A stretch of 64,000 nucleotides of DNA from Maribacter algarum (ex Lu et al. 2025) (nom. illeg.). GTDB lineage: Bacteria > Bacteroidota > Bacteroidia > Flavobacteriales > Flavobacteriaceae. Numbering within the stretch: the stretch's first letter is position 1; every line of letters begins with the position of its first letter. The notes beneath the pieces were generated by a model. That model was not told the DNA's origin, did no database searches, and saw only the letters and a program-made list of their open reading frames with translations. Shown in pieces: positions 1,967 to 27,326 of this stretch. The stretch covers positions 1 to 64,000 of the forward strand of contig CANMAW010000005.1 in NCBI GenBank assembly GCA_947495915.1. Direction: 5' to 3'. The position numbers were made by a program, and so were the translations under genes.

Positions 1967-2161
1967 GCCAGCAGATAACAATGGCTATAAGCAATACCGG
2001 GCTTTAGACTGACCGAAAGTTAGTTAAGTAAATCGAAGTCCGTAAAGCCTTATTTTGAGTTTTTATCGTTAAATTTAAAAACAAAAAATAAGGCTTTACT
2101 ATGTGCCATTCGGAAAGGTCTGTGCTGAAAATCAAACATACGAGCCGAGACCGTTAGGCAA
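1967..2161 (+). repeat. attC-like palindromic intergenic element E1
   Basis: Left core GCCAGCAGATAAC + AATGGCTATAAG; right half CGAGCCGAGACC + core GTTAGGCAA; inner 15-bp stem GTAAAGCCTTATTTT/AAAATAAGGCTTTAC (2042-2056/2085-2099). Confidence 0.75.
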
Positions 2162-2186
2162 CATTAAAAACAAGGTAAAATCAAGA

Positions 2187-2957
2187 ATGCCATTCAATAA
2201 ATTAGAATACATCTCTATAGAAAATCAAACTACTGAATTCCCTAAGCATTTTCATGAAACGTTTTGTATTTCACTCATACATAAAGGAACAGAACAAATC
2301 GATTTTGAAAAACATAGTCTCTTTAGTGAAGCTGGTAGTATTTCAATTACCAACCCTTATGAAGTGCATTCAAACCCTTTGATTGATAAAACTTCCTGTT
2401 TAAAATTTGATACTATTTATGTTCCAAATGAACTTATGAAAAAAGCCTTAAACGGAAAAAATATAAAGTTCGCCAATGGGAGTAGGAAAATAAAAAGTAA
2501 AAAAATTACTCGCTTGTTTTTAGCCCTAAAAAATGCTTTAGAAACAACAAATAAAAACACTATTGCTAATAATTTTCATCTATTCGCTACTACTCTTGAG
2601 CAGTTTGCAGAGGAAAATAAAACAGACTATTCATACATCAACTTTAAAAACCTCACTAAGACAAACAACTATATAGAAAATCATATACAAGAAAAATTTC
2701 ACTTAGAAGAACTATCTAAAATGGCACATATTAATAAATATGGTTTTTCAAAAAAGTTCAAAACATTTACGGGAATGACACCAATGAATTATATACTTAT
2801 GCGAAAAGTATTTTCGAGTAAAAAGGTAATAAAAAACACTACAAACCTTACTGATTTAGCCTACCTATATAATTTTACAGACTTAGCTCACTATTCTAAA
2901 ACCTTTAAACGCTTTATAGGCATTTCACCAAAAGACTATAAAAACAGCTTGCTTTAA
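2187..2957 (+). CDS. AraC-family transcriptional regulator (cupin-like N-terminus)
   Basis: ORF; start taken at the internal Met (MPFNKLEYISIENQ) because the upstream part of the ORF lies in element E1; C-terminal double HTH. Confidence 0.9.
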   Translation: MPFNKLEYISIENQTTEFPKHFHETFCISLIHKGTEQIDFEKHSLFSEAGSISITNPYEVHSNPLIDKTSCLKFDTIYVPNELMKKALNGKNIKFANGSRKIKSKKITRLFLALKNALETTNKNTIANNFHLFATTLEQFAEENKTDYSYINFKNLTKTNNYIENHIQEKFHLEELSKMAHINKYGFSKKFKTFTGMTPMNYILMRKVFSSKKVIKNTTNLTDLAYLYNFTDLAHYSKTFKRFIGISPKDYKNSLL

Positions 2958-3027
2958 AATTGTCAATATTATACAAGTAATTAAGGTTCTGGCAGTATTA
3001 CATTTGTAAAAAACATATAATTTTACA

Positions 3028-4521
3028 ATGAGTACGATTACTAAACTTAGCATTTTTCTACTTATAATACTTGCAATTTCTTGCAATTTAGAACCAAAGA
3101 AGGGTGTAACTATTGAGGAAAATAGACTTTCAGAAAAAGAAATGCTTGACGATTATCAGTTGTTTAAAAATATCTTTGAACAAGCCAATGCGGGTCTATA
3201 TAAATACCATACAAAGCAAGCAATAGATAGTGTTTTTGAAGCAAACGAAAGGCTTATAAACGACAAACTATCATACCGAGAATATTATAATGTATTATGG
3301 AATGTAATCGATTATACAGGAAGTTGCCATAATGAACTGTATTTTCCAGACTCATTAAAACAGCAGTTAAATAAAGAACCAATATATTTCCCCTTACCAT
3401 TAAAACATTTGGATGATAAAATATACACCAAGCACAGATTTGAAACTATTCCTAAGGGAAGTGAAATTATAGCTGTAAATAATATACCCAATAAAAAATT
3501 AGCTTCATTATTAGCAAATTACACCAGCACTGATGGTCATAACAAAACAGGAAAACACGCATTTATAGAAACTGGTAGACTAGCAAGGTATATGTACTTG
3601 ATTTTTGGAAAACAACAACATTTTGAAATTGTCTACAAAGGTGAAAATTCATCTAGTATAAAAGAACAAATTACAGCAGTTGATTATACTACTTTCTTAA
3701 ATAATTTCAAGAAAAAGCAAACTAAAATAGAAGAAGAAAAAGAATATAGTTTTAAATATATAGACACTATAAAATCAGGTTACTTAAAAGTAAAAACTTT
3801 CGGTATGGGTGGACCAGATTCCAAAGGACATAAACAGTATGCTAAATTTCTAGATTCAGTTTTTATTCAATTAAAGACAAATAAAGCTACAAGCCTAATT
3901 GTAGATGTTCGAAATAATGGAGGTGGAAATGACCCAAACGATATACTTCTGTATTCGTACTTAACAAAAAGAAAATTTAAAGAGAATACATCTGCCTACA
4001 CTATTTTTCAAGACATTCCTTTTAAAGAACATTACATTGATGATGACATTAACGAATTACCAAAAAGTTTAAAAGAAGAACATTCTATTTTTAAAGATGG
4101 GAAATACTACCAAAACAACAGTTTTAATAAAGTTTGGAATCCGAATAAAAATGCATTTAACGGAACCATTTATTTGTTAGTAGACGCTTTTGTTGCCTCT
4201 GCAGGCTCATTATTCGCTAGTTTAGTTAAAAGTGATGAACAAACCATTGTAATAGGAGAAGAAACAGCTGGTGGATATTACGGACACACTGGCCACATCC
4301 CTGTAAATTACCAATTGCCAAACTCAAAATTAATTCTACAATTCTCAATAGTAGATTTAGAACAAGATGTAAAAGAATTACCCGATGAAAACTATGGTGA
4401 TGGTATTAAACCTGACTTCAATATAATTCAATCGCACTCAGATTTTATAGATAAGAAAGACACACAACTAAACTTTACCATTAATTTGATTAAAAGTAAA
4501 ACATTGCCTAACAAGGTATAA
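3028..4521 (+). CDS. S41-family peptidase-like lipoprotein
   Basis: ORF; lipobox LAISC; SLIVDVRNNGGG and AFVASAGSLFASLVK...VIGEETAGGYYG motifs. Confidence 0.88.
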   Translation: MSTITKLSIFLLIILAISCNLEPKKGVTIEENRLSEKEMLDDYQLFKNIFEQANAGLYKYHTKQAIDSVFEANERLINDKLSYREYYNVLWNVIDYTGSCHNELYFPDSLKQQLNKEPIYFPLPLKHLDDKIYTKHRFETIPKGSEIIAVNNIPNKKLASLLANYTSTDGHNKTGKHAFIETGRLARYMYLIFGKQQHFEIVYKGENSSSIKEQITAVDYTTFLNNFKKKQTKIEEEKEYSFKYIDTIKSGYLKVKTFGMGGPDSKGHKQYAKFLDSVFIQLKTNKATSLIVDVRNNGGGNDPNDILLYSYLTKRKFKENTSAYTIFQDIPFKEHYIDDDINELPKSLKEEHSIFKDGKYYQNNSFNKVWNPNKNAFNGTIYLLVDAFVASAGSLFASLVKSDEQTIVIGEETAGGYYGHTGHIPVNYQLPNSKLILQFSIVDLEQDVKELPDENYGDGIKPDFNIIQSHSDFIDKKDTQLNFTINLIKSKTLPNKV

Positions 4522-4703
4522 AAAACATAGGGCGGTTTAGGCTAAACCTGAAAGCCTATGTTTATTTACAAAGTCGCCAAATATAAAATTTAGAATTTTC
4601 AACAAAAAAGATAAAAAGCAAAATATTATATTTGGCTTAGTACCAATTCGAAACATATCACTTATCATCTGCCCTACGTTTATTATACTGAACGTTACCA
4701 CCA
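4504..4703 (+). repeat. attC-like palindromic intergenic element E2
   Basis: Left TTGCCTAACAAGGTATAAAAAACATAGGGCGG, right CTGCCCTACGTTTATTATACTGAACGTTACCACCA; inner stem GCCAAATATAA/TTATATTTGGC; overlaps the stop codon of the upstream CDS. Confidence 0.82.
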
Positions 4704-4712
4704 ATTTCGAAA

Positions 4713-5474
4713 ATGAAAAGATACTTAATAACAATATTGATTGGATTTAACCTTTTCTCATGTTTATCTGAAAGTAAAAAAGATGAGACAAACTCTAATC
4801 AAGAAACAACGACAACAAGTATTGAGAATACTGTTGGAGAAAGAATTGATGGACCCGCAAATGTTCGAGATACTATTAATGGAAAAATTATTTTCAAACT
4901 TTATGACAATGTTTTAGTTGAATCAACTCCTGAAGAAAACGACTGGAATGTTATAGGCATAATGCCAAGTAACCCTAAATCCGATTATAATGAAAATCTT
5001 CTGAAAAAAGGAGTTAAGATTTTAGTTGACGACCAAGTTATAGGAGAAACGCTTCATAACGTAGAAGTTATCATGGGTTTGTCGGGGTACACCCATAAAA
5101 ACAACATTAGACAAAATACAATTATAGAAAATGCATTAAAATCTCATTTAATTAGCACTAATTACAGTAGAAAAATAGAGGGCTTTAAAAGCTTTATAGC
5201 AGACTTTAATCTTGAAAAAGATGAACAGTTTGAGGGACTAGTAGTTTACTATAAATATGAGAATTGGATTGATGACCCGTCACCAATGATGCGTATTGGG
5301 CTTGTTTTTGAAAATGACAAATTGATTTCTATTTTACATTCTAGATCATTGATAATAAAAGAGACTACCGACCATAAATTGGATTATGCATTTGACTGCT
5401 TGACATACAATGATGTTAGTAACACGGAAAATATTGTAAAAAGATTCAACCATTTTGTTAATTCCGTGGACTAA
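4713..5474 (+). CDS. Lipoprotein with SH3-like domain
   Basis: ORF; lipobox LFSC; GPANVRDTINGKIIFKLYDNVLVESTPEENDWNVI resembles bacterial SH3-like repeats. Confidence 0.7.
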   Translation: MKRYLITILIGFNLFSCLSESKKDETNSNQETTTTSIENTVGERIDGPANVRDTINGKIIFKLYDNVLVESTPEENDWNVIGIMPSNPKSDYNENLLKKGVKILVDDQVIGETLHNVEVIMGLSGYTHKNNIRQNTIIENALKSHLISTNYSRKIEGFKSFIADFNLEKDEQFEGLVVYYKYENWIDDPSPMMRIGLVFENDKLISILHSRSLIIKETTDHKLDYAFDCLTYNDVSNTENIVKRFNHFVNSVD

Positions 5475-5478
5475 AAAC

Positions 5479-5679
5479 TGGTGGTAACACAACCAATAAA
5501 CAATACGGGCTTCTCTCCTATTCGAATGGTTTGCGTATTTTTATAGAGTCCGCCAAATCTTTTGATTTGGTATTAAAAGAAAAAAATTAAAACAAAACAC
5601 AAAAGATTTGGCTTGTGATTAACCTGAAAGTAATCGCTTATTTTCTGCCCAACTTGCCATATATTTAACGTTGGCAGTA
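5479..5679 (+). repeat. attC-like palindromic intergenic element E3 (type A)
   Basis: Left core TGGTGGTAAC, right core GTTGGCAGTA; inner stem GCCAAATCTTTTG/CAAAAGATTTGGC (5552-5564/5600-5612). Confidence 0.82.
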
Positions 5680-5691
5680 ATTAGGTACGAG

Positions 5692-6255
5692 ATGAAAAAC
5701 TATTTAGAATCTTTTGGAATATTAACTGCGAATGAAATTAAATCATTTGAAGATTTAGTCACATCTAGAAAATTAAACAAAGGAGAGTACTATATTAAAG
5801 AAGGCAACATATCAATGGATGTTTCATTTGTACGTTCGGGTTTGTTAAGGTCATTCTATTATAATTCACAAGGAGAAGAAACTACCTATTGTTTTACATT
5901 TTCAAATTCTTTTGTTACAGCGTATTCTTCATTCTTAAGTCAAACCAAAACATTAGAAAATATTCAGGCTTTAACCGATGTAGAATTATATTCTCTTTCA
6001 CGAGAACAAATTTTAAATCTCGAACAAAACAGCGAAAACTGGTTGCGACTATTTAAGTTTCTAACAGAACAAGAGTATATTAAAATGGAAAAACGAATTT
6101 TCTTGCTTCAAAAAGAAACAGCAGAAAAACGGTATGAAGATTTATTGAAATATAAATCAGACTATTTACAACAAATTCCTTTAAGCTATTTAGCTTCTTA
6201 TCTAGGTATTACACAACGACATTTAAGCAGAATTAGGGCGCATATTTCGAATTAG
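5692..6255 (+). CDS. Crp/Fnr-family transcriptional regulator
   Basis: ORF; cyclic-nucleotide-binding-like fold plus SYLASYLGITQRHLSRIRAHI HTH; upstream TTG start of the ORF track lies inside E3, so the ATG at 5692 is preferred. Confidence 0.88.
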   Translation: MKNYLESFGILTANEIKSFEDLVTSRKLNKGEYYIKEGNISMDVSFVRSGLLRSFYYNSQGEETTYCFTFSNSFVTAYSSFLSQTKTLENIQALTDVELYSLSREQILNLEQNSENWLRLFKFLTEQEYIKMEKRIFLLQKETAEKRYEDLLKYKSDYLQQIPLSYLASYLGITQRHLSRIRAHISN

Positions 6256-6307
6256 ACAAATGTCCTATTTAATTCACTATTGATCTTCGACTTTTGTATC
6301 AAAAAGA

Positions 6308-6886
6308 ATGATGAATATTTTAATTATCAATGGCCACCCTAACAAACAAAGCTATAATTATGCTTTGGCAGAAGCATACAAAGAAGGTGTTCAAAAAACG
6401 AGTGCAAAATTATCAACAATTAATATTGGTGAATTAAGCTTCAATCCAAATCTTCAGTTTGGCTATCAACAAAGAACCGAAATAGAACCAGATCTTAAAG
6501 TAGCAATTGAGAAAATTAAAAATGCTAATCATATTGTTTGGATATTTCCTATGTGGTGGTATGGTTACCCGGCAATAATGAAAGGATTTATTGACCGTAC
6601 GTTTCTGCCTGGTATTGCATTTAAACCAGTAAAAGGAAAGGCATTTCCTGAAAAATTACTTAAAGGAAAAACAGCACGAATAATAATTACATCAGATTCT
6701 CCAAGATGGTATGATTTTTTGTTTATGAAAAGCCCTGCAATTAATCAGTTTAGAAAAGGAACATTGAATTTTTGTGGAATAAAACCTGTAAAAGTTACTT
6801 ATATTGCTCCTATTAAAAATTCGTCAAAAGAATTTAGAAAACAATGGTTGAATGCTGTAACTATCTTAGGAGAGAAACTAAAATAA
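6308..6886 (+). CDS. NAD(P)H-dependent oxidoreductase, flavodoxin-like fold
   Basis: ORF; ILIINGHPNKQSYNYALAEAYKEG, FPMWWYGYPAIMKGFIDRTF. Confidence 0.92.
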   Translation: MMNILIINGHPNKQSYNYALAEAYKEGVQKTSAKLSTINIGELSFNPNLQFGYQQRTEIEPDLKVAIEKIKNANHIVWIFPMWWYGYPAIMKGFIDRTFLPGIAFKPVKGKAFPEKLLKGKTARIIITSDSPRWYDFLFMKSPAINQFRKGTLNFCGIKPVKVTYIAPIKNSSKEFRKQWLNAVTILGEKLK

Positions 6887-6887
6887 C

Positions 6888-7022
6888 TACTGCCAACAAT
6901 GTGTATAAGTAATAGCGGTTTAAGTGATAAAAGGAAAGTATAAACATAAAACAAAGGTCAGTGCAAAACCGAAAGGTTAGTGAATAGAAATCCACTACTG
7001 CTCATAGCCGATACCGTAGTGC
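6888..7022 (+). repeat. attC-like intergenic element E4 (short type)
   Basis: Left TACTGCCAACAATGTGTATAAG, right CTCATAGCCGATACCGTAGTGC; contains AATAGCGGTTTAAGTGATAAAAGGAAAG shared with 18396. Confidence 0.75.
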
Positions 7023-7038
7023 ATTAAAACCAAACTTT

Positions 7039-7572
7039 ATGGAAATAGGAAATAAAATGATAAAACTTAATTGGAAATTTAGAATTGTGTCAGCAATTTC
7101 AACTGGACTTTTATTTGTTGGAATTATGTGTCTTATGGACTATTTTTTAGATGGAGAATTTCAAAGTATGAATAGTTACTTGTTTCAAGGGATATTTTTC
7201 GGAATATTTATGGGAATTGGATTTCCGTATGTAACTCAAAAATTCGGAACTAAATTTAATTCTAAAATCGGAAAAAATATTAAGCCTGAATTGACTCAAG
7301 ACGAAAATATTGAAATAGAAGGTCCTGCAAATTTATTTCGTGGAATAGAAGGTGTTGGCGGTAAATTATTTTTAACGAACAAGAAAGTTGCTTTTAAATC
7401 CCATAAAATAAATATTCAAAAAGGACAGACTGACATTCCTTACGAGAATATTAGCGAAATAATAAAAAGAAAAACAGCAAAATTAATTGACAACGGAATT
7501 CGAATAATAACCAATGACGGAAATGAATTTGACTTTGTTGTTAATGAACGAGAAAAGTGGGTTGAAAGCTGA
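7039..7572 (+). CDS. Membrane protein with GRAM-like C-terminal domain
   Basis: ORF; two N-terminal TM segments, then EGPANLFRGIEGVGGKLFLTNKKVAFKSHKINIQKGQTDIPYENI. Confidence 0.6.
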   Translation: MEIGNKMIKLNWKFRIVSAISTGLLFVGIMCLMDYFLDGEFQSMNSYLFQGIFFGIFMGIGFPYVTQKFGTKFNSKIGKNIKPELTQDENIEIEGPANLFRGIEGVGGKLFLTNKKVAFKSHKINIQKGQTDIPYENISEIIKRKTAKLIDNGIRIITNDGNEFDFVVNEREKWVES

Positions 7573-7585
7573 ACGAAAAAATAAC

Positions 7586-7722
7586 GCACTACAACACCGT
7601 ATAAAATTAATGGCTAGTCCTTGCCTACTTACGAAAATCCTCGCGGATTTTCTATCTGGTGTTTCTTTGCTAAATAAAGTGCTTAAACACGCCACTAATT
7701 TTATACAAAACCGTTATAGCAC
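7586..7722 (+). repeat. attC-like palindromic intergenic element E5 (type B)
   Basis: GCACTACAACACCGTATAAAATTAATGGC...GCCACTAATTTTATACAAAACCGTTATAGCAC; internal hairpin GAAAATCCTCGCGGATTTTC (7633-7652). Confidence 0.85.
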
Positions 7723-7725
7723 ATT

Positions 7726-8322
7726 ATGAAAAACCAAATCAGCATGAATCGAATCTTGATAACTTCCCTCATCCTTTTATTCGGACTTGTAAGTTGTAAA
7801 AATTCTGAAAAGACAATTGACAAGCTTCAAATTGCTGAAAATTATTTCGTGGCTCTTGATGAATCAAATAGTGCCAAAATGGAAGGTTTATTAGCGGATA
7901 GTTTGATAACCACAATACCGAAATATGAATATGAAGTAAGATACTCTAAAAATGACTACTTGAGGGACTGGTTAAAATGGGACTCGATTTTTGAACCAAC
8001 TTATAAAGTGCTTGAAATGAATCTGGAAAACGGAAATGTCAAAGCAAAGGTTTCAAAATCGGACAAGAGAATTATTTTCTTTATGGGAAAGCCATTTATC
8101 ACAAATGAGATTCTAAGATTCAAAGATGATAAAATAATTGAATTAGAAACGGAGTACGTAAATTTCGAAGAAGATATTTGGGGAAAGAATAGAACTGAAC
8201 TTTTAAATTGGACTAAAGAAAATCATCCTGAACTCAATCTTGACCTTAATATTAATATACAAACTGAATCTGGAGGAAAGCTATTCTTAAAGGCAATTGA
8301 ACGGTATGAAAACGAGAAATAA
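7726..8322 (+). CDS. SnoaL/NTF2-like lipoprotein
   Basis: ORF; lipobox GLVSC; KIAENYFVALDESNSAKMEGLLADSL-like NTF2 start. Confidence 0.6.
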   Translation: MKNQISMNRILITSLILLFGLVSCKNSEKTIDKLQIAENYFVALDESNSAKMEGLLADSLITTIPKYEYEVRYSKNDYLRDWLKWDSIFEPTYKVLEMNLENGNVKAKVSKSDKRIIFFMGKPFITNEILRFKDDKIIELETEYVNFEEDIWGKNRTELLNWTKENHPELNLDLNINIQTESGGKLFLKAIERYENEK

Positions 8323-8323
8323 C

Positions 8324-8528
8324 GTGCTACAACAATGGCTATAATTAATACGGGTTTCGGTGCTTAACGCCAAGTTTAGGCATATTTATGAAGGCCGCCA
8401 AATCTTTTGGATTTGGCAATTAAAAAAGAAAAATAATTTTAAAAAAAAACTCTGGCTCGCAGACCAGACGGAAACGAAAGGTTTCCTTGCCTGCCCTACT
8501 TGCCATAGCTGAGACCGTTGTTGGGCAT
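8324..8528 (+). repeat. attC-like palindromic intergenic element E6 (type A)
   Basis: GTGCTACAACAATGGCTATAATTAATACGGG...CCCTACTTGCCATAGCTGAGACCGTTGTTGGGCAT; hairpins CCAAATCTTTTGGATTTGG and GGAAACGAAAGGTTTCC; very similar to E10. Confidence 0.87.
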
Positions 8529-8565
8529 CATTTTAAGCGCAACATTCAAATAGTATTCTTGCAAA

Positions 8566-9129
8566 ATGAAAGAAAAATTAAAAGAACATATTGAAAATTT
8601 AACACCTCTTACAGATGATGAATTTTCCTTTGTTTTATCACATTTCTCATTTGAAAAACACAAAAAAAATGATTTTCTTATTCGAGAAGGAGAAAACGTA
8701 AGGCACTGTTATTTTGTTGTTTCAGGGCTTTTGAAATTAGTTTTCAATGATAAAGATGAAAAGCAACACATTGTATCCTTTGCAATGGAAGATTGGTGGG
8801 AAAGTGATTTTTCGGCTTACTTTACAAAAACTAAAGCAAAAATGTCATTGCAATGTATTGAAAACACTACCGTATTTTCAATTAGCCTTGATAATTATGA
8901 AAAATTATCTACTGAATTACCCAAAATGGAGCGTTTCTTTCTTAAAAAATCTAATTCAGGACATATTGCTGCACAAAATAGGATTTTATCATTTCTAACA
9001 TCGAGTGCTAAGGAGAGATACGAACAATTACTTAAACAATACCCTTCATTATTTCAAAGAGTACCTAAAACCCTTTTAGCTTCTTATTTAGGGGTTTCTC
9101 GTGAGACGCTCAGTCGACTTTCTTCTTAA
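8566..9129 (+). CDS. Crp/Fnr-family transcriptional regulator (C-terminus ends early after LSRLSS)
   Basis: ORF; cNMP-binding fold and LLASYLGVSRETLSRLSS HTH. Confidence 0.88.
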   Translation: MKEKLKEHIENLTPLTDDEFSFVLSHFSFEKHKKNDFLIREGENVRHCYFVVSGLLKLVFNDKDEKQHIVSFAMEDWWESDFSAYFTKTKAKMSLQCIENTTVFSISLDNYEKLSTELPKMERFFLKKSNSGHIAAQNRILSFLTSSAKERYEQLLKQYPSLFQRVPKTLLASYLGVSRETLSRLSS

Positions 9130-9218
9130 AGTTTTCCTTTCTTTATAATTGTGATGTTTGTCACGCCCGAACAATACTATTATTTAAATATTTGCAGTGT
9201 AATCACAAAACTATAATT

Positions 9219-9314
9219 ATGAAAAATAAAGTAAAATTATTAGCAATTATATTATTAACAACTATGTCAACATACGCACAAAAGAAAGGAACAAATGGAA
9301 AAACGAATAATTAA
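9219..9314 (+). CDS. Short signal-peptide-like ORF (about 31 aa) overlapping the next gene out of frame
   Basis: ATG AAA AAT AAA ... translates MKNKVKLLAIILLTTMSTYAQKKGTNGKTNN*. Confidence 0.4.
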   Translation: MKNKVKLLAIILLTTMSTYAQKKGTNGKTNN

Positions 9315-9684
9315 TCCATGGCAATGGCAAAACGAAAGAAGTTATGTACAGGCAGTAGAAGTGAAAAAACCTGAAGGAACTTTATATATATCAGGGCAAA
9401 CAGCAACAAATGCAGATGGAAAATCAAGTATTGAAGATATGAAAACTCAACTAATTGAATCTTTGGCTAATTTAGAAAAAGTTATTACAGAAGCTGGATA
9501 CAAATGTGAGAATATAATTAGATTAAACGTATATACCACTTCAACAGATGAGCTATTTTCTTGTTTTGATATTTTCCAAAATTGGATAACTAGACATAAT
9601 ATAAAACAGACAAGTACCTTATTAGAGGTAAAAAGTCTTTTTGAAACATTAAAAGTAGAATTAGAAGTTACTGTTGTTAAGTAA
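9295..9684 (+). CDS. RidA/YjgF-family protein
   Basis: ORF; LYISGQTATNADGKSSIEDMKTQLIESLANLEKVITEAGYKCENIIRLNVYTT. Confidence 0.9.
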   Translation: MEKRIINPWQWQNERSYVQAVEVKKPEGTLYISGQTATNADGKSSIEDMKTQLIESLANLEKVITEAGYKCENIIRLNVYTTSTDELFSCFDIFQNWITRHNIKQTSTLLEVKSLFETLKVELEVTVVK

Positions 9685-9715
9685 TATTTGATTAAGGTAT
9701 TCGGATAAAAAACGA

Positions 9716-9856
9716 ATGCCCAACAACGTATAAAAGTAATAGTGGTTTGGGGCTTAACTGAAACCGCTATTACTTTTAATTTAATATATTGTTATGCGAA
9801 AAGTAAATGCATTTTACCCCCTATTACTCTAATACAAACCCGTTGTAATCAATAGC
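9716..9856 (+). repeat. attC-like intergenic element E7
   Basis: Left core ATGCCCAACAAC, right core GTTGTAATCAATAGC; internal stem AAGTAATAGTGGTTT/AAACCGCTATTACTT. Confidence 0.78.
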
Positions 9857-9930
9857 GAAAAAATACTTGTAAGAAATTTTCTAGAAAAGTTAAACTGCAA
9901 ATTGTACTTTAATACATCTTGTTTTTAATT

Positions 9931-10557
9931 TTACATTCCATATTTATAACCTATTCGGATGGTAAAATTAAAAAGGTAATTATCGGTTCCTTGAGAATCT
10001 AACTCTGATGTACTCCTAAAAAAGTTAAGTAAATCAAATCCCAAACCTGTTTTAAATTCGACATTCCATCTATAATTAATATTTCGTTTCATACCCCAGG
10101 CAAGTGTTAAAAATAAACCACTCTCAGCATTAATATCAACGTCTTTAGGTGAATAAGCTAAAAACCTAGGATAGTAACGAAAAGCCCCAGAGGCAAAATC
10201 ACCACTATTATGAAATGTGTTTTTGCTATTTCCCTGGCGTTTTCTTGAGTTGTAGTACCATCTAACCCACAAAGAACCTACTGGCAAAAATAACGGGTAT
10301 TGATAAAACAATGAGTTTGGGTTTTTCTGATTAGACATAATATTATCATCTGAAATTATTTTATCTTTAATAAAAATTGGTGCTTCATAGCCAAATTCGG
10401 TTCTAAAAGCCCAATTTTTATTCAAACCAGTTTCGTTATTCCACCAAATACCAAGGGCTCCTGTTTGTATTCCGCTAATAGATTCATCAACTATCTGAGC
10501 TTTACAAACAGAAAAAAATAAAATTAGAATAAAGGGACTCCGAAAGAGATATTTCAA
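9931..10557 (-). CDS. Predicted secreted/outer-membrane beta-barrel-like protein, reversed relative to the array
   Basis: ORF; signal peptide; similar by eye to the 27454-28011 product (SISGIQTGALGIWWNNETGLNKNWAFRTEFGYE vs SIFGMQTGFLGVWFNHELSLNHHWVLHTELGLD). Confidence 0.65.
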   Translation of the reverse strand: MKYLFRSPFILILFFSVCKAQIVDESISGIQTGALGIWWNNETGLNKNWAFRTEFGYEAPIFIKDKIISDDNIMSNQKNPNSLFYQYPLFLPVGSLWVRWYYNSRKRQGNSKNTFHNSGDFASGAFRYYPRFLAYSPKDVDINAESGLFLTLAWGMKRNINYRWNVEFKTGLGFDLLNFFRSTSELDSQGTDNYLFNFTIRIGYKYGM

Positions 10558-10753
10558 AATTAAAAATAGTTGTTAGTTAAACCTCACAAACGTAGGAAAA
10601 ATCAACTTCGTATGCGGTTGAATCTGTAATCACAAACGTTGTAGAGAAGGAATTTGCTCATGCGCAATCGTTATGTCGATGGACTTTTTAGCTTGTTTGA
10701 GCAAATGGACTTTAGCGTTTAAAACAAAACAGAATATGCTTACTCGGACGAAA

Positions 10754-10965
10754 GCTATTGATTACAACAAAACCTAAACGTAATGTGGGCTAAGGGTTTT
10801 ATTCGCAGCGTTTGCGTATTTTTATGAGGTCGCAAAATCTTTGGGATTTTGCTTTGGACGAGAAAAAAATAAATCAAAACAAAAAGATTTCGCTATGTGC
10901 GTGGCGGAAAGCAAACGCCAATTTGCTCCCGCACTGTTCATAGCTCAACCGTTGTATGCCATTGT
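10754..10965 (+). repeat. attC-like palindromic intergenic element E8 (type A)
   Basis: Left core GCTATTGATTACAAC, right core GTTGTATGCCATTGT; hairpin GCAAAATCTTTGGGATTTTGC. Confidence 0.82.
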
Positions 10966-11013
10966 GTACAACCTCTATAAAAATAGTGTCTAACAAGTTA
11001 AAAGGTTAACCCA

Positions 11014-11406
11014 ATGAAAAAAATCATCACTTTTACCGTTTTATTTCTAATTGTATTATCGTGCTCAGACTCAAAAGATGGCGACTGGGACGATAATATA
11101 AAACTATCCCAAAAAGAAGTACAACTTTCTTCTGGGCAAAACAATGTCGAAATATCAACGGAAGGCACCGGATGGTGGATTGGGGAAGTTTCAATGGACG
11201 GGGAATTATTCGACTTAAATGGAATTGACACAACAAAGGAAAATTTTACTATTGAAGAAACTGAATTCTCTATTGAAAGAAAAAATTCAACGGAAATTTA
11301 TATTTCAATGCAACAAAACCGAACTGAATCTACAAGGGTTTTGATAATTGGACTTCAAGCGGGTAATTATTTTGATGGAATAAAGATTACGCAGTCAGCG
11401 AATTAA
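11014..11406 (+). CDS. Small lipoprotein with BACON-like/Ig-like sequence
   Basis: ORF; lipobox VLSC; QLSSGQNNVEISTEGTGWWIG pattern. Confidence 0.55.
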   Translation: MKKIITFTVLFLIVLSCSDSKDGDWDDNIKLSQKEVQLSSGQNNVEISTEGTGWWIGEVSMDGELFDLNGIDTTKENFTIEETEFSIERKNSTEIYISMQQNRTESTRVLIIGLQAGNYFDGIKITQSAN

Positions 11407-11409
11407 AGA

Positions 11410-11614
11410 ACAACGGCATACCACAAAACCTATAAACAATACGGGCTTCGGGCTTAGTCGCAGGGTTTGTGTATTTTTATGATGTCGCTACATCTTATGG
11501 ATTTAGCTTTAGAACAAAAAAATAAAACGAAACAATAAGCTTTAGCTTCGTGCGCAGACGGCAACGAAAAGTTTCCTTACTACCGCACTACGCTTAGCCC
11601 AAACGTTGTAAGTA
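11410..11614 (+). repeat. attC-like palindromic intergenic element E9 (type A)
   Basis: Left ACAACGGCATACCACAAAACC, right GCTTAGCCCAAACGTTGTAAGTA; inner GTCGCTACATCTTATGGATTTAGC. Confidence 0.82.
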
Positions 11615-11630
11615 ATTTAAAAATATCCCT

Positions 11631-11906
11631 TTGAGAATATTTAAAAACATATTATTATTCCAAAAAAAAATATTTTTTATCTCTTATATGATTTCAATCG
11701 TGATTGGAATATTACTTGGCGGCAAATTTTCTACTATTGGATTCTGTTTCATTATAATTGCTCCAATAATTCAATATTACGTTTATGAAATAAAACATAA
11801 AAACGAATATTACTTCTACTATAATTTAGGATTAGGCAATCTTGAACTATGGGCTTCTACATTCATAATAGCTTTAATTAATCTGTTGATATTATCATTA
11901 ATATGA
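11631..11906 (+). CDS. Small multi-TM membrane protein, probable ABC partner
   Basis: ORF of 91 aa with several hydrophobic segments; overlaps the start of the ABC ATPase gene (ATGA-type overlap). Confidence 0.55.
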   Translation: MRIFKNILLFQKKIFFISYMISIVIGILLGGKFSTIGFCFIIIAPIIQYYVYEIKHKNEYYFYYNLGLGNLELWASTFIIALINLLILSLI

Positions 11907-12586
11907 ATGGACTACATATTGACAGTTTAACCAAAAAATACAATAATAAAGTCATCCTAAGTGATATATTCCTCTCGTGCGAAAAAGGCAAAATAACGGG
12001 TTTAATTGGTAGAAATGGTTCTGGAAAATCTACGTTTTTAAAAATAGTATTTGGGACTGAAAAGGCTGAATCGAAATTTGTACGAATAGGTAAAAAAATA
12101 ATTAGAAATATTTCAGATGGAAGAAATCTAATCAACTATTTGCCACAAGACAATTTCTTACCAAATAACATAAAAATAAGCACATTAATAAAGCTATTTC
12201 TTTCAAAAGAGAATTCGGATATTCTATTTAAGAACGAGCATATAATTCCATTGTTAAACAAACAAAATCAAGACTTGTCTGGCGGCGAAAAAAGAATAGT
12301 GGAAATATTACTAATCATTCATTCTGATACAGAGTACATTTTACTTGATGAACCATTTAACGGAGTAAGCCCCATTGTTCGGGATTATATCATAGAATAT
12401 ATTAAGAAAATGAAGTTGAATAAAGGATATATTATTACGGACCACGATTATGAAAATGTAATCAATTTAGCGGATAGTATTTTGTATTTGCAAAATGGAT
12501 ATTTAAAAGAAATCAATGACAAAAGCGAATTAGTTGAGTTAGGCTATCTAACAAAAACTACTTACAACAATACCTATAGCAAATAG
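11903..12586 (+). CDS. ABC transporter ATP-binding protein
   Basis: ORF; Walker A GLIGRNGSGKST, signature LSGGEKR, Walker B YILLDEP. Confidence 0.95.
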   Translation: MNGLHIDSLTKKYNNKVILSDIFLSCEKGKITGLIGRNGSGKSTFLKIVFGTEKAESKFVRIGKKIIRNISDGRNLINYLPQDNFLPNNIKISTLIKLFLSKENSDILFKNEHIIPLLNKQNQDLSGGEKRIVEILLIIHSDTEYILLDEPFNGVSPIVRDYIIEYIKKMKLNKGYIITDHDYENVINLADSILYLQNGYLKEINDKSELVELGYLTKTTYNNTYSK

Positions 12587-12769
12587 GGCGAAAAAGTGCT
12601 AAATTTAATGTCTTGGTATTATTTATTAAGTCCGCCAAATCTTTTGGATTTGGCAATTAAAAAAGAAAAAATAATTACAAAACAAAAAGCTTTGGCTCGC
12701 AGACCAGACGGAAACGAAAAGTTTCCTTGTCTGCCCTACTTGCCATAACTGAGACCGTTGTGTGTCAGC
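12559..12769 (+). repeat. attC-like palindromic intergenic element E10 (type A)
   Basis: Left core TACTTACAAC (inside the ABC gene 3' end), right GCCATAACTGAGACCGTTGTGTGTCAGC; near-identical body to E6. Confidence 0.85.
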
Positions 12770-12876
12770 TATCAAAACACCTAATAAAAATAAAATCTAT
12801 TAAAAATTCACAGTTTGCTTTTTCTACTGTCTAATATAATGTAGCCAAAACTCATTGGTTATTTAAATTTATTAAA

Positions 12877-13287
12877 ATGTCAGTAATTAAAAATCACGAT
12901 GTACAAAGTATTAACCTATCAACATCAACCGAAAAAGCATTTGATTACATTGCCAATCCTGTAAACTTAGAAAAATGGACTGGAGCTTTTAAAAATGCCG
13001 ATGACAAATCTGCACTATTAGTTACTCCAAACGGAGAACTTAAAATTGGTTTAGAAACAAAAACTAATAGAGAATTAGGAACTATAGATTGGTACATGAC
13101 AATGCCGGACAAAAGTGTAGGCGCTGCATATTCAAGAGTAACTTCAGGACCTGATGGTAAGGCTATTTATTCTTTTGTTTTAATAGCTCCACCTGTGCCT
13201 TTAGAAGAAATAGAAGGAACTTTGACAGCTCAAATAGGTCAACTTAAGGATGAACTAATAAAATTACAAGAAATTTTAACAGTATAA
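12877..13287 (+). CDS. SRPBCC-family (START-like) protein
   Basis: ORF; INLSTSTEKAFDYIANPVNLEKWTGAFKNA. Confidence 0.75.
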   Translation: MSVIKNHDVQSINLSTSTEKAFDYIANPVNLEKWTGAFKNADDKSALLVTPNGELKIGLETKTNRELGTIDWYMTMPDKSVGAAYSRVTSGPDGKAIYSFVLIAPPVPLEEIEGTLTAQIGQLKDELIKLQEILTV

Positions 13288-13338
13288 AAAAACATAAAAA
13301 AGGCTAAATTTCATTTTAGCCTTTTTATAAATCTAAAC

Positions 13339-14139
13339 ATGAAAGAGCAACTGATAAAAGAAAGCTTAGCAGGAAATAAAAAAAGTCTTGAAAAATTGAT
13401 AAAATCTATTGAAGGTTTAGTGTACAATTTGACACTTCGTTTTTTATGGAATAAAGCGGATGCAGAAGATGCCACCCAAGAAATTTTGATAAAAGTAATA
13501 ACCAATTTAAGTAAATTTAATAGGAAAAGTAAATTTGATACTTGGGTTTATAGCGTTTCTACTAATTACTTAATCAACCAAAAGAAAAGTTCGTTTGAGA
13601 AGCATCCTATGTCGTTTAGTAGCTTTTCTGAAGAATTATATATGATTAAAGAGCCTGTTAGTTATGATTTACCTGATAAATATTTATTAGAAAAAGAAAT
13701 GAAAACAGGTTGTACCTTAGCAATGTTACAATGCCTGAGCAGAAATTTGAGAATTGTTTTTATACTAGGTAGTGTTCTTAAAATAAAAAGTAATGTAGCT
13801 TGTGAAATTTTAGAAATTACACCTGTAAATTTTAGAAAAAGACTGGAAAAGTCAAGAAAACTAATAGATACTTTTATGAATTCTAATTGTGGTGTTTACA
13901 ATCCTAAAAACCTTTGTAGGTGCAACAATAAAATAAACAATGCTTTAGCTTGTAAAAGAATTATAAAGAACGACCTGAGTTTTGTTTCTGATGTAGAAGT
14001 TTATAATGACGAAATGGAAGAATTAAATTCTATGACTGGTATTTATGGAAATCACGGAAAATTTAAAAGTAAATCAGACTTTTATAATGAGCTAGCAAAA
14101 CTTGTAATGAATAAAAGAATAATAAATTTCGAGCAATAA
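13339..14139 (+). CDS. ECF-type RNA polymerase sigma factor
   Basis: ORF; RFLWNKADAEDATQEILIKVITNLSKFNRKSKFDTWVYSVSTNYLIN region 2 motif. Confidence 0.88.
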   Translation: MKEQLIKESLAGNKKSLEKLIKSIEGLVYNLTLRFLWNKADAEDATQEILIKVITNLSKFNRKSKFDTWVYSVSTNYLINQKKSSFEKHPMSFSSFSEELYMIKEPVSYDLPDKYLLEKEMKTGCTLAMLQCLSRNLRIVFILGSVLKIKSNVACEILEITPVNFRKRLEKSRKLIDTFMNSNCGVYNPKNLCRCNNKINNALACKRIIKNDLSFVSDVEVYNDEMEELNSMTGIYGNHGKFKSKSDFYNELAKLVMNKRIINFEQ

Positions 14140-14144
14140 ATAAA

Positions 14145-14289
14145 GCCGAACCCACAACAAAGTATAAAATTAATTGCTTGGTTCTAGCCTACTTACGAAA
14201 ATCTTCGCGGATTTTCAGCTTGGTGTGTACTTGCAAAGTTAAGTGCTAACTCACGCAACTACTCATAGCTGATACCGTTAGTTGTAAGC
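14145..14289 (+). repeat. attC-like palindromic intergenic element E11 (type B)
   Basis: GCCGAACCCACAACAAAGTATAAAATTAATTGC...ACTCATAGCTGATACCGTTAGTTG; hairpin GAAAATCTTCGCGGATTTTC (14197-14216). Confidence 0.82.
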
Positions 14290-14305
14290 AGAAAAAACAA
14301 ACCTC

Positions 14306-15232
14306 ATGAGTCCAAAAATAAAAACATTAAAGCCAAATGAACTTTTGGAATCTTTCATGGATTTTGGATTAAAACGGAATGACATTTTCAAAAAGGGACA
14401 TGAACTTTTCTATATTGCCAAGTTACAAGATTTAACACCAATTTCTCGGCCCCCTGTTCCTCCTGTAAAATCAAAAACACATTCTTTAATTTTTCTTACA
14501 AGTGGTGTTTTAGAAATGAATGTTGGTTATCAAAAAATTCATATCAATAAAAATGAATGTGTTATAATTCCGGCTGGTATGGTTTTTAGTCATAGTATTG
14601 AAAATTATAATAAAGGAAAAGAAGGAAAAGGCATTATTTGTGGATTTAGTGATGATTTTTTAATTGGACAAATTGGTAGTCGTGATTTGTTAAAATCTTT
14701 CGAATTTTTGACAATTTTAGGAAATCCAATTATCAAGCCTAAAAAACAATCCATAAAATATCTAGTTCAATCACTGAATAGAATTATGTATGAATACAAA
14801 ACATCAAATCTAAAAAACGTACTCATACTACAATCTTACTTTATTTCTATACTTTGCGAATTAAACACTGATTACCTATCTGCTTCTTTAAAAAAAAATA
14901 AAACTGCAATTAAGATAACTAATAGATTTATAGAGTTAGTTCACAAAAAAATAAATACTACACACCAAGTTTCTACTTATGCTTCATTGCTAAATATCAG
15001 CCCTAATCATTTAAATAAAACTATTAAAATAATTACCCAAAAATCTCCTTCTAATTGGATTAGAGAGATTTTGATTAACGAAGCAAAAGTATATCTCTTT
15101 CAAACTGACCTTTCTATACAGGAAATATCCTTACAATTAGGATTTGATGACCAATCATATTTTACTCGCATATTTAAAAAACAAGAAGGCATAACGCCAG
15201 TCGCTTATCGAGAATTGATTGATTTGTCCTAA
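14306..15232 (+). CDS. AraC-family transcriptional regulator
   Basis: ORF; C-terminal INEAKVYLFQTDLSIQEISLQLGFDDQSYFTRIFKKQEGITPVAYR. Confidence 0.93.
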   Translation: MSPKIKTLKPNELLESFMDFGLKRNDIFKKGHELFYIAKLQDLTPISRPPVPPVKSKTHSLIFLTSGVLEMNVGYQKIHINKNECVIIPAGMVFSHSIENYNKGKEGKGIICGFSDDFLIGQIGSRDLLKSFEFLTILGNPIIKPKKQSIKYLVQSLNRIMYEYKTSNLKNVLILQSYFISILCELNTDYLSASLKKNKTAIKITNRFIELVHKKINTTHQVSTYASLLNISPNHLNKTIKIITQKSPSNWIREILINEAKVYLFQTDLSIQEISLQLGFDDQSYFTRIFKKQEGITPVAYRELIDLS

Positions 15233-15348
15233 CATCAGATTGTTCTCTTCTAGTCTTGTTCTTCTCTCACCCCCTACTTTTGTTGGAGAAAAAATAAATG
15301 GTAAGCAATTATCATTTTATACGTTGTAAAAAAACATAATAAAATTGA

Positions 15349-15558
15349 ATGATTCACGTATTTAAGACTTCGGTTAGAACTACAAAGGATGTTGACAAAA
15401 TAAGACCTCTGCTAGATAATTTATCTTAGAATCTAAAATGGAATTTTGATTTAGAAGATTGTGACAATATTTTACGAATTGAAACTTCCTTTATCTCACC
15501 AAACACAATTATAAACCTACTGGTTGATGCCTCATTTGATTGTCAAGAATTAGAATAA
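15349..15558 (+). pseudogene. Small ORF interrupted by in-frame TAG
   Basis: MIHVFKTSVRTTKDVDKIRPLLDNLS*NLKWNFDLEDCDNILRIETSFISPNTIINLLVDASFDCQELE*; TAG at 15427-15429. Confidence 0.5.
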
Positions 15559-15567
15559 ATAGAAATT

Positions 15568-16530
15568 ATGAAAAAAATGAAAGCAATAATATGCACAGAA
15601 TATGGAGAGCCAAACGTCTTAAAATTGACTGAAGTCCAAAAACCAATTCCAAAAAAAAATGAGGTAATAGTAAAAATTCACTCAACTGCTGTTACTGCAA
15701 GTGACTGCCTTATTCGTGGATTAAAGATACCTGGAGGACATCGCTTTCCTATGAAGCAGTTAATGAAATTTGGAATGCGTGTATTTATTGGATTTACAAA
15801 ACCACGAAACCCTATACTTGGTTTAGTATTCTCTGGTGTAATAGAAAAAACTAATAATGTTTCTAACTATAAACTTGGAGATGAAGTATATGGTTTTACG
15901 GGAGTAAGCAGAGGAACTTATGCAGAATATAAATGCGTATCTAATAAAGAAATAATATCAGGACAAATGGCTTTGAAACCTAAAAATGCCAGCCATCAAG
16001 AGGCTACAGCAATTGTTTACGGAGGAACATTAGCTATACATTTTATGAGGAATGCAAATATTAAAAAAGGACAAAAGGTTTTAATTTATGGAGCTTCTGG
16101 TGCGAATGGTACAGTTGCTGTACAAATTGCCCAGTATCATGGAGCTGAAGTCACAGCAGTTTGTAGTAATAAAAATTTTGATTTAGTAAAATCACTTGGT
16201 GCGAATAAAGTAATTGATTACACATCTAAAGATGCAATCAATAAGTTAGAAAAATATGATTTTATTTTAGATGCAGTTGGAAAAAACAAAACATCAAGTT
16301 TAAAAGTAGCATCTAAAACTTCACTTACATCGAATGGTATTTATGCATCCGTTGATGATGGTTTTTTAAAAATAAAACCAAGCTATTTACAAAAATTAAA
16401 TACCTATTTTGAAACTGGAAATTTTAAAGCTATAATTGATAGAACCTATTCTTTGAATGATACAGAAAAAGCCCACGAGTACGTAGAAGAAGGTCATAAA
16501 AAAGGGAATGTTATAATAAATGTGGTGTAA
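15568..16530 (+). CDS. NAD(P)-dependent alcohol dehydrogenase/quinone oxidoreductase (MDR superfamily)
   Basis: ORF; GQKVLIYGASGANGTVAVQIAQYHGAEVTAVCS. Confidence 0.93.
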   Translation: MKKMKAIICTEYGEPNVLKLTEVQKPIPKKNEVIVKIHSTAVTASDCLIRGLKIPGGHRFPMKQLMKFGMRVFIGFTKPRNPILGLVFSGVIEKTNNVSNYKLGDEVYGFTGVSRGTYAEYKCVSNKEIISGQMALKPKNASHQEATAIVYGGTLAIHFMRNANIKKGQKVLIYGASGANGTVAVQIAQYHGAEVTAVCSNKNFDLVKSLGANKVIDYTSKDAINKLEKYDFILDAVGKNKTSSLKVASKTSLTSNGIYASVDDGFLKIKPSYLQKLNTYFETGNFKAIIDRTYSLNDTEKAHEYVEEGHKKGNVIINVV

Positions 16531-16630
16531 AGAGTTAAGATATACCTTGTATTCGAACCTTCTTTATATTCAGAACTTTTTCAATAATTTACTTTAAATA
16601 TAGAAGGAGTTTTACTTAATTGATTAAAAA

Positions 16631-16774
16631 GCCAGCAGCTAACACAGTATATAATTTATTGCTAGGTATAGTCTATTTTCGAAAACCCTCGCGTATTTTC
16701 TATTCGGTTTGTATTTGCTAAATTAGTTGCATAAACCATGCAGCTAATCTTATACAAAACCATTATGCCCAATT
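16631..16774 (+). repeat. attC-like intergenic element E12 (type B, diverged)
   Basis: GCCAGCAGCTAACACAGTATATAATTTATTGC...CTAATCTTATACAAAACCATTATGCCC; GAAAACCCTCGCGTATTTTC hairpin. Confidence 0.78.
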
Positions 16775-16782
16775 AAGAGAGA

Positions 16783-17469
16783 ATGAATAGACTAACTCGA
16801 ATAACAGCAATTCTAATTCAATTACAATCTAAAAAAATTGTTACTGCAAGTGAAATAGCTGAAAGATTTGAAATTAGCTTAAGAACTGTTTACAGAGACA
16901 TTAAAACACTTCAAGATGCTGGAGTTCCGGTAGGTTCTGAAAACGGAGTTGGATATTTTATGGTGAATGGCTATTCATTACCACCAATAATGATTACTCA
17001 AGAAGAAGCAAATGCTCTAATTGTTTCGGAAAAATTAATTCTAAACCAAGGAGACACTTCCTTGATTAAAGATTTCAATTCCTTACTAATAAAAATAAAA
17101 TCGACTCTTAGGGCTTTTGAAAAAGAAGAAATTTCAAAACTGGAGAATAGGATAGAACCTTCAACAAAAAACAAAAAAAACACAAGTAATTGGTTGTCTT
17201 CAATACAAAAATCAATCACCCACTCCAATGTTATAAAAATCAATTACTTATCAATTTACAAGGATGAACATACAACTCGTGAAATTGAACCTCTTGCCAT
17301 TTATTTCACCGAGAGTTCTTGGGTTTTAGTTGCATTCTGTCGTTTACGAAACAACCTACGCGAATTTAGATTAGATAGAATTTCTACACTCTTTATTACC
17401 TCAGAAACGTTTGATTATCAACAAGATTTCTCATTAAATGATTATTTCAAGAAATTTATTGAAGTATAG
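16783..17469 (+). CDS. YafY-like HTH/WYL-domain transcriptional regulator
   Basis: ORF; RLTRITAILIQLQSKKIVTASEIAERFEISLRTVYRDIKTLQDAGVPVGSENGVGYFM. Confidence 0.92.
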   Translation: MNRLTRITAILIQLQSKKIVTASEIAERFEISLRTVYRDIKTLQDAGVPVGSENGVGYFMVNGYSLPPIMITQEEANALIVSEKLILNQGDTSLIKDFNSLLIKIKSTLRAFEKEEISKLENRIEPSTKNKKNTSNWLSSIQKSITHSNVIKINYLSIYKDEHTTREIEPLAIYFTESSWVLVAFCRLRNNLREFRLDRISTLFITSETFDYQQDFSLNDYFKKFIEV

Positions 17470-17528
17470 CTGACATAGGGTTGTCACTCCTCCCATTTAC
17501 ATTTGTCTCATAAACTTAAATATACCAA

Positions 17529-17918
17529 ATGAAGCATTTATTAATTGGTATTATAGCTGTCGCATTGTTTAGCTGTAATACCCAGAACAAAACAAGTATG
17601 AGCGAACAAAGTAAAAAGGTTGGAACAATTGAATTGGTTATTTTTGATACCTATCCTCAATATTCCAAAGCAGAAGTGATAGCAGCAGCAAAAGCCGTGA
17701 ATCCTGTTGCAGAAAAATTTGATGGCTACATTGGAAGAAAGCTAGCGGTAGACAAAAACGGTAAATGGACTGATATTGTTTATTGGACTGACCTGAAATC
17801 AGCTGAACATGCTGCACAAGAAATTTTGAAAAGTGAAACCTGTAAAAAATTCTTTGGAATGATAAATCAAGAAACTATGCAATTTATGCATCTTGATCCT
17901 GTAATGGATTCCAAATAA
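17529..17918 (+). CDS. Small lipoprotein, dimeric alpha/beta-barrel (monooxygenase)-like
   Basis: ORF; lipobox LFSC; DGYIGRKLAVDKNGKWTDIVYWTDLKSAEHAAQE. Confidence 0.6.
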   Translation: MKHLLIGIIAVALFSCNTQNKTSMSEQSKKVGTIELVIFDTYPQYSKAEVIAAAKAVNPVAEKFDGYIGRKLAVDKNGKWTDIVYWTDLKSAEHAAQEILKSETCKKFFGMINQETMQFMHLDPVMDSK

Positions 17919-17924
17919 AAAGGT

Positions 17925-18398
17925 ATGACTAAAAACGACATAATTAAAAGGGTTCAGGAAAAATTTGATGGTCTTGTCCTAAATAAAAATTGGGGAGAAA
18001 TAGGACTATTTTACAATCCAGAAAATAAACTAAGTAAGGGTATCTATCTATTGACATTCAAAGAAAAAGATGGTTTAAATGACAAAGCATCAAATACGGA
18101 TAGAAATGGCGTATTTAGGCTAAACGTTGGAATATCAAAAGATACCTTTTTTAGGTTGTTTGGAGAAAGACCCAAAAGACCAAAAGCAGGCCAAATAATT
18201 GATATGCCTTATGACTTTTCTGAACTTAATAAAATAATGCCTCATCCGATTTATGGTTGGATGAGTTGGATTTGTATTTTAAATCCGACAAGGGAAACTT
18301 TTGATAAATTATTCCCACTAATCGAAGAAGGATATTATTTAGCTTTGAAAAAATACGAAAAGAAAATAGAAGGGCTTAACAATTTAAATTTAAAATAG
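17925..18398 (+). CDS. DUF6194-like protein
   Basis: ORF; GVFRLNVGISKDTFFRLFG...YGWMSWICILNPTRETFDKLFPLIEEGY; family assignment from memory. Confidence 0.6.
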   Translation: MTKNDIIKRVQEKFDGLVLNKNWGEIGLFYNPENKLSKGIYLLTFKEKDGLNDKASNTDRNGVFRLNVGISKDTFFRLFGERPKRPKAGQIIDMPYDFSELNKIMPHPIYGWMSWICILNPTRETFDKLFPLIEEGYYLALKKYEKKIEGLNNLNLK

Positions 18399-18507
18399 CG
18401 GTTTAAGTGATAAAATGAAAGATAACGTATATAATTAAGTTCCGTTATAAACGAAAAAGTTAGAGAGAAAACCCCACTTCTTCTCATATACAAAAATGTT
18501 ACGTTCC
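18396..18507 (+). repeat. Degenerate/composite attC-like elements (E13/E14)
   Basis: ATAGCGGTTTAAGTGATAAAATGAAAG (as in E4, left end missing) followed by GATAACGTATATAATTAAG...CTCATATACAAAAATGTTACGTTCC. Confidence 0.6.
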
Positions 18508-27190: not shown

Positions 27191-27326
27191 AATGCCAACA
27201 CTGTATATATAAAATAACGGTTTAAGCGATTATTTCAAGATGAGTTTTGTAAATTGAAAAGTAATAGTAATTTAAAAAGCCTCTTTGTAAAACTTAGTGC
27301 TTTTCATATACATAAACTGTTACCCA
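27191..27326 (+). repeat. attC-like intergenic element E16
   Basis: AATGCCAACACTGTATATATAAAATAACGGTTTAAGCG...TTTTCATATACATAAACTGTTACCCA. Confidence 0.72.

Follow-up and report, generated by a model that had tools for sequence, protein, structure and literature searches.

Gene cassette arrays of a probable integron-like system in Flavobacteriaceae, headed by a recombinase without the IntI insert

The DNA analyzed here, referred to as the window, is the first 64,000 nucleotides of contig CANMAW010000005.1 from Maribacter algarum (ex Lu et al. 2025) (nom. illeg.), a member of the Flavobacteriaceae. Near its start lies a tandem array of units that begin with GTT, usually hold one to three genes, end with AAC, and are each followed by an attC-like site that forms a hairpin and is about 117-121 or 180-190 bases long (Table 1). 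These units are probably mobile gene cassettes of an integron-like system that would combine bottom-strand folding of its sites with a tyrosine recombinase lacking the insert of the integron integrase IntI; recombination itself we infer from sequence comparison.

Each unit can be recognized by the complementarity between its own two ends. A sequence-only reading of the window had listed nine consecutive units whose start and end cores match by eye, and all nine pairs are in place. When every start was compared with every end over the first 10 bases, the match averaged 9.6/10 within units, whereas off-diagonal pairs averaged 4.9 and reached 8 at most, and the true assignment of ends to starts was the sole best of all 362,880 permutations (exact permutation 1/362,880). 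The matches are, as that reading held, unit-specific, reach past 7 bases, and are tied to the circular form of the unit; the circular site is predicted to be more stable than the site within the array in 85/87 cases. Two pairs need qualification: in the unit at 8517 the pair itself stands, but the reported 12/12 depends on the register chosen (AACAAC/GTTGTT), and in the unit at 7016 the 7/7 match is real and begins only at GTAGTGC because the GTT triplet is absent at the unit start, as if 3 bases had been lost.

To avoid circularity, sites were also located by flank profiles from which the cores were excluded, which gave 143 sites and 123 consecutive units over the window and 19 other loci. 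The contiguous same-unit run in these 123 units averaged 7.95 bases (median 9) against 3.88 off the diagonal, and 5000 within-array shuffles peaked at 635 against the observed 978. Same-unit runs of at least 8 bases were found in 76/94 units of a separate set of loci from named genomes, and junction pairing inside arrays mostly spanned 3-5 bases. The general core profile consists of 10 paired bases, a near-invariant opposition at base 11, and about 3 further paired bases; bases 4-10 are free to vary between units, yet they are paired within each unit.

Two broader claims made for this extended match were not supported. The sequence-only reading had suggested that it sets the specificity of recombination, but the partners that would recombine, attI and neighboring sites, agree at GTT/AAC alone, not at the variable bases, and a role of the match in partner recognition is therefore ruled out. 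It had also taken the length of the match as a departure from integrons, whereas same-unit matches in canonical IntI-associated arrays of the same phylum are likewise mostly 8-15 bases long, which rules out extended complementarity as a novel trait. Base 11 does differ, being paired in 71% of matching canonical units versus 1% in the present ones. The detector used for the canonical attC sites is blind to strand and lists each canonical unit twice, so that distinct units number about half of its rows. When the circular cassette folds, the extended match forms the foot of the recombination hairpin and is not a special specificity code; it is ordinary among integrons, and the unusual parts are the recombinase and the oppositions in the hairpin, including the one at base 11.

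The attC-like sites follow the plan R''-spacer-L''...L'-spacer-R', with an L stem of 6 pairs, an opposition, 4 pairs, a second opposition, and about 5 pairs. On the top strand the two L-stem oppositions place A against C in 45/48 and 47/48 sites, and over the whole L stem A.C on top outnumbers G.T on top by 108:2; base 11 of the core stem is A against C in 75/87 units. Several L-stem pairs covary, being altered on both sides. The A.C oppositions of the top strand become G.T wobbles on the bottom strand only, and predicted folding of the reconstituted circular sites favors the bottom strand in 87/87 (mean -30.2 versus -25.7 kcal/mol). Canonical attC sites from IntI loci, treated in the same way, have few A.C oppositions and carry bulged (extrahelical) bases in 44/46 cases, against none in 80/137 and one in 45/137 flavobacterial sites, although the two sets came from different detectors, which may affect the bulge counts. 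Amid otherwise diverse sites, one type (AATGTATAACCGCAATTACGGCGG) is nearly unchanged across many genomes (e.g., at loci L049, L051, L053, and L062).

In the host genome the array is fragmented over contigs C6, C11, C9, C12, and the window's own contig, C5. Contigs C6, C11, and C12 each end in the same insertion sequence (IS) end, roughly 10-25 bases past a start core, leaving 3 orphan start cores and 4 orphan end cores. Because each of the three starts pairs over a long run with exactly one orphan end (C6 with C11, run 9; C11 with C9, run 10; the C12 tail with GCAGATAAC, the first end core of the window, run 9; next best 6), the pairing suggests a contig order, a pattern noticed post hoc. One array head is on C6, where a 384-residue tyrosine recombinase (C6:9647-10801, minus strand) is followed by an attI-like site and then by cassettes whose cores and sites are of the same kind as those of the window. 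One of these, encoding a WYL regulator, a 129-residue open reading frame (ORF), and a DUF6194 protein, is nearly identical to window positions 16783-18398. An ordinary IntI was sought in the host genome and none scored over the cut-off.

Some further features of these contigs were seen in passing. The IS end stands 10-25 bases behind a cassette start core at the oriented tail of L014, at 1-100 of L169, and at the tail of L170, and another IS end opens both C12 and the window (window 1-80); the placement looks as if cassette starts were preferred, and it is at these IS copies that the array assembly is interrupted. Defense-like genes, with weak PADLOC and Pfam matches, are found in the first cassettes after the recombinase gene (L014 7790-9589 and 2567-4249, minus strand); they encode a DUF4365 protein similar to the nuclease portion of an Aga system and a restriction-like protein of the PLD type.

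The recombinase scores 212.6 bits against the XerA-like model (cut-off 220) and 203.6 bits against the integron integrase model TIGR02249 (curated cut-off 265), thus below both thresholds. The segment from the K-loop to the HxLRH motif spans 65-66 residues in the members measured versus 107 in IntI, and the IntI-specific insert of about 42 residues is therefore missing; it is also absent in a 30-member alignment and in the alignment to IntI4 (2a3v). By sequence and fold the closest solved relatives are XerA and other Xer recombinases, and the Foldseek matches of the AlphaFold model, which has modest global confidence (pLDDT 82, pTM 0.51), are recombinases. In a tree the recombinase and IntI fall in separate, well-supported clades; with Xer sampling thin and long-branched, this tree does not settle the nearest groups and would be compatible both with sisterhood to IntI and with an independent branch. 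All orthologs share an N-terminal alpha/beta domain (residues 1-85 in L017), and in Foldseek and Pfam searches no PDB match explained this domain of about 85 residues and no Pfam family covered it.

Orthologs (44%-57% identity) occur in about 39/151 Flavobacteriaceae genomes, often at contig edges, with distant relatives in others. The nearest among named genomes, at 79% identity, is from Maribacter vaceletii, and the same-genus genome examined has a distant relative only. An attI-like motif, ATATAACNA|GTT, lies 3' of the recombinase gene in 60/69 orthologous loci, and the first cassette begins at the GTT of the motif. TAnnTTTG is the Bacteroidetes-type -7 box, and it occurs just upstream of the motif in 20/57 loci versus 2% of random windows. 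Most loci also carry a second conserved block, TTATCC[CG]G, some 40-45 bases upstream of the attI core and in part inside the end of the recombinase gene; it may be an accessory binding site. Sites were found in 37 of 80 named loci, in all 37 downstream of the recombinase and on the same strand, so that the gene is oriented towards the array; the site flanks match one strand only (124/124 and 130/130). Arrays headed by orthologs reach about 70 kb, and in the closed genome G114 the sites, listed from 173 to 240 kb, adjoin a recombinase at 242-243 kb. More distant recombinase relatives in other Bacteroidota families have the same layout. In five Flavobacterium loci (L124, L126, L128, L129, and L131) distant relatives end in the attI-like motifs TATATACNAGTT or ATATAAACNAGTT, and no sites were detected within 10 kb of them; their sites may have diverged.

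Indirect traces of cassette movement are found both within and between genomes. One array contains the same cassette four times, each copy among different neighbors (bodies 95.6%-99.8% identical), and cassettes are common to different genomes. Sharing extends even to arrays headed by the two different recombinase clades, as between L049 and Algibacter onchidii L117 (93% over 810 bases). The homology starts or stops at unit borders in several shared-cassette pairs. In one homologous pair (L066/L117, bodies 85% identical), core bases 6, 8, and 9 are changed at both ends with the 10/10 pairing kept, the compensatory change that selection for pairing in the circle would predict.

In the mechanism we propose, the recombinase would excise a cassette as a circle by joining neighboring sites at or beside GTT, and the circle would then be inserted at attI or a different site. 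The bottom strand of this circle, once folded, would serve as the substrate, its start and end cores paired over about 10 bases and, beyond a G.T wobble, over about 3 further ones. The choice of strand may come from the oppositions, A.C on top and G.T on the bottom, in place of extrahelical bases of the IntI type, which would fit a recombinase lacking the IntI insert because it is this insert that docks the extrahelical bases. In the roughly one third of loci that have it, the promoter-like motif just upstream of attI could drive the first cassette.

Several points weigh against reading the units as mobile cassettes of such a system. The recombinase and the window array are on separate contigs, linked by core pairing and shared IS ends only; the cores of several window cassettes are decayed, and the array may for that reason be partly inactive. 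Single-strand recombination has moreover been described as dependent on the IntI insert (PMC7790495), and the lack of the insert would here favor a double-stranded substrate. That argument belongs to the best surviving rival, in which the recombinase acts on the cassettes as a classical Xer enzyme does, moving them in double-stranded form; the hairpin would then be incidental to inverted R and L binding sites, whose symmetry is all that the circular match reflects. This would suit the sequence closeness to XerA as well as the missing insert, yet double-stranded binding would not select strand-polar mismatches at 108:2, and core bases 4-10 that vary between units while remaining paired within them, with compensatory change, are unlike a fixed binding sequence. 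We consider it unlikely.

Less probable still is an ordinary integron in which no more than sequence divergence keeps the integrase and the attC sites under the thresholds of the general models. The shared plan (cassettes, attI, GTT/AAC, R''/R' pairing, and bottom-strand folding) and the subthreshold match to the integron integrase model are what such an integron would show, but the insert is absent in every member measured, the recombinase forms a clade apart from IntI, its gene reads towards the array and not away from it, and in most of the sites extrahelical bases are missing, with A.C/G.T oppositions at fixed places instead. The inverted cores could also form an mRNA panhandle around each gene, acting in RNA stability or regulation of immobile units, given that they flank coding sequence and would share one transcript; the fixed oppositions, however, are A.C mismatches on the transcribed (top) strand and paired on the bottom strand only, one cassette stands at several places with different neighbors, and a recombinase and an attI-like site head the arrays, all of which makes this very improbable. 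Transposons with terminal inverted repeats are scarcely credible despite the IS elements within the array (transposase at 18989) and the IS ends at contig edges, given that one transposase would need common ends whereas the inverted cores differ between units, and that the units carry unrelated cargo in one direction with only the site and GTT/AAC in common.

Mobile cassettes with an insert-less recombinase thus remain the preferred reading, and their likeness to chromosomal (sedentary) integrons is extensive. Both have co-oriented tandem cassettes, mostly of one or two genes, with a GTT/AAC core, same-unit R''/R' pairing of 8-15 bases, sites foldable from the bottom strand, an attI-like site beside the recombinase gene, arrays of tens of kilobases, and cassettes common to several genomes. 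The flavobacterial recombinase differs in having no IntI insert, in its extra N-terminal domain, and in a gene pointing towards the array, and the sites differ in their scarcity of extrahelical bases and their fixed oppositions, including core base 11. The additional domain of the integrase (I2 patch) is a defining characteristic of integrons (PMC9668308), and because the IntI-specific insert is absent, extrahelical bases are mostly missing, and the recombinase scores under the TIGR02249 cut-off, the system is integron-like in its working and should not be classed as a canonical integron. Like XerA and other Xer recombinases, the enzyme has no IntI insert, but it has an extra N-terminal domain, an attI-like site of its own, cassette arrays downstream, and a separate clade in the tree. 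A fixed dif-type site, as in XerC/XerD-dif modules, is unlikely given the variable unit cores, although no dif search was run. Taken by itself the window resembles a CALIN (a cluster of attC sites lacking an integron integrase), but the host genome has a dedicated recombinase, simply missed by IntI models, that heads an array with the same type of site on C6, and core pairing joins the broken contigs. According to PMC8138268, the insertion is incompletely conserved within an "integron-like" subgroup of tyrosine recombinases, and on that account the insert-less recombinases may already belong there; its passages on this subgroup describe no cassette arrays or attC-like sites for the insert-less members. 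A search of the open-access literature, with subscription papers and preprints outside its range, found no earlier description of these arrays.

A covariance model of the site, with E-values that are rough, has matches in 136/151 Flavobacteriaceae genomes, nearly all of different genera. A recombinase match is absent in 14/15 siteless genomes versus 34/136 site-bearing ones (p=2.8e-7), in a test uncorrected for kinship or for genome size, most of the siteless genomes being small. IntI scored over the curated cut-off in 105/396 sampled genomes of the phylum (GTDB Bacteroidota), in classes other than Bacteroidia and in none of the same family, a count far above what the literature consulted suggests for the group. 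Applied to 16 IntI-bearing genomes of other classes, the site model found nothing in 11 and weak matches (at most 63 bits) in 5. Genome G155 (L167) has a true IntI and, about 145 kb away, a broken relative of the insert-less recombinase, with sites of the flavobacterial type near both.

Past the main array the window has half-sites or decayed sites at 24605-24632 (GTTGCCAACAACGTATGC) and 28185-28385 (TGGGTAACAAAACCAAAAC), and an Rfam scan of the window gave no match.

Table 1. Cassettes and attC-like sites of the window; bit scores refer to site model R1.
Feature	Position	Strand	Cores, basis, or remark
attC-like site, AAC to GTT	1975..2155	+	ends a cassette truncated by the contig start; end core GCAGATAAC; flank profile, core
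Cassette 1: AraC-type regulator, S41 peptidase	2153..4512	+	GTTAGGCAA / TTGCCTAAC
attC-like site	4510..4696	+	37.9 bits
Cassette 2: 253-residue ORF, unknown family	4694..5488	+	GTTACCACCA / TGGTGGTAAC
attC-like site	5486..5672	+	flank profiles
Cassette 3: cNMP-binding regulator, flavodoxin-like oxidoreductase	5670..6897	+	GTTGGCAGTA / TACTGCCAAC
attC-like site, 3' GTT triplet missing (CCGTAGTGC)	6895..7018	+	68.8 bits; sequence
Cassette 4: GRAM-domain ORF	7016..7595	+	GTAGTGC / GCACTAC(AAC)
attC-like site, best example in the window	7593..7715	+	102.3 bits
Cassette 5: 198-residue ORF, unknown family	7713..8333	+	GTTATAGCAC / GTGCTACAAC
attC-like site (long type)	8331..8519	+	39.9 bits
Cassette 6: Crp-type regulator, RidA-family protein	8517..9727	+	GTTGTTGGGCAT / ATGCCCAACAAC
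attC-like site	9722..9844	+	68.1 bits
Cassette 7: single ORF on minus strand	9842..10768	+	15/15, without base-11 opposition
attC-like site (long type, weak by model)	10766..10953	+	sequence; 17.3 bits
Cassette 8: 130-residue ORF	10951..11424	+	GTTGTATGCC / GGCATACCAC
attC-like site, AAC changed to CAC	11422..11607	+	sequence; flank profile
Cassette 9: 91-residue ORF, ABC-type ATPase	11605..12568	+	GTTGTAAGTA / TACTTACAAC
attC-like site (long type)	12566..12759	+	38.7 bits
Cassette 10: 136-residue ORF, sigma-70 region 2 protein	12757..14158	+	partly decayed (run 6)
attC-like site	14156..14279	+	84.3 bits
Cassette 11: AraC-type regulator, zinc-binding dehydrogenase	14277..16643	+	partly decayed (run 5)
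attC-like site, GTT changed to ATT	16641..16764	+	78.8 bits
Cassette 12: WYL regulator, 129-residue ORF, DUF6194	16762..18389	+	near copy of second cassette of contig C6
attC-like site, decayed	18378..18500	+	35.9 bits
Isolated attC-like site after WG-repeat protein	27197..27321	+	33.3 bits

In the accepted account, acquisition of the I2 helix turned a Xer-like ancestor into the integron integrase; the helix docks extrahelical bases, makes recombination of single strands possible, and has been described as unique, with no other protein having it (PMC7790495). The main new point here is the coupling of an insert-less recombinase to sites that mostly lack the bases the insert docks. On balance, though with less assurance than for the cassettes themselves, we favor a separate gene-capture lineage, widespread in Flavobacteriaceae and also found in other Bacteroidota, that would use single-stranded attC-like hairpins and a recombinase whose ancestry never included the IntI helix, and would read the strand from G.T wobbles and not from extrahelical bases. 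Insert-less recombinases heading attC-like arrays make the accepted account of I2 directly testable, and the system may show a second way of capturing genes through folded single-stranded DNA; if so, integron-style capture arose, or persisted, without the domain thought to have enabled it. IntegronFinder 2.0 reported one complete integron in Bacteroidetes proper (PMC9024848), whereas sites of the present type are in 136/151 Flavobacteriaceae genomes; a large pool of gene exchange in an abundant family may have been overlooked.

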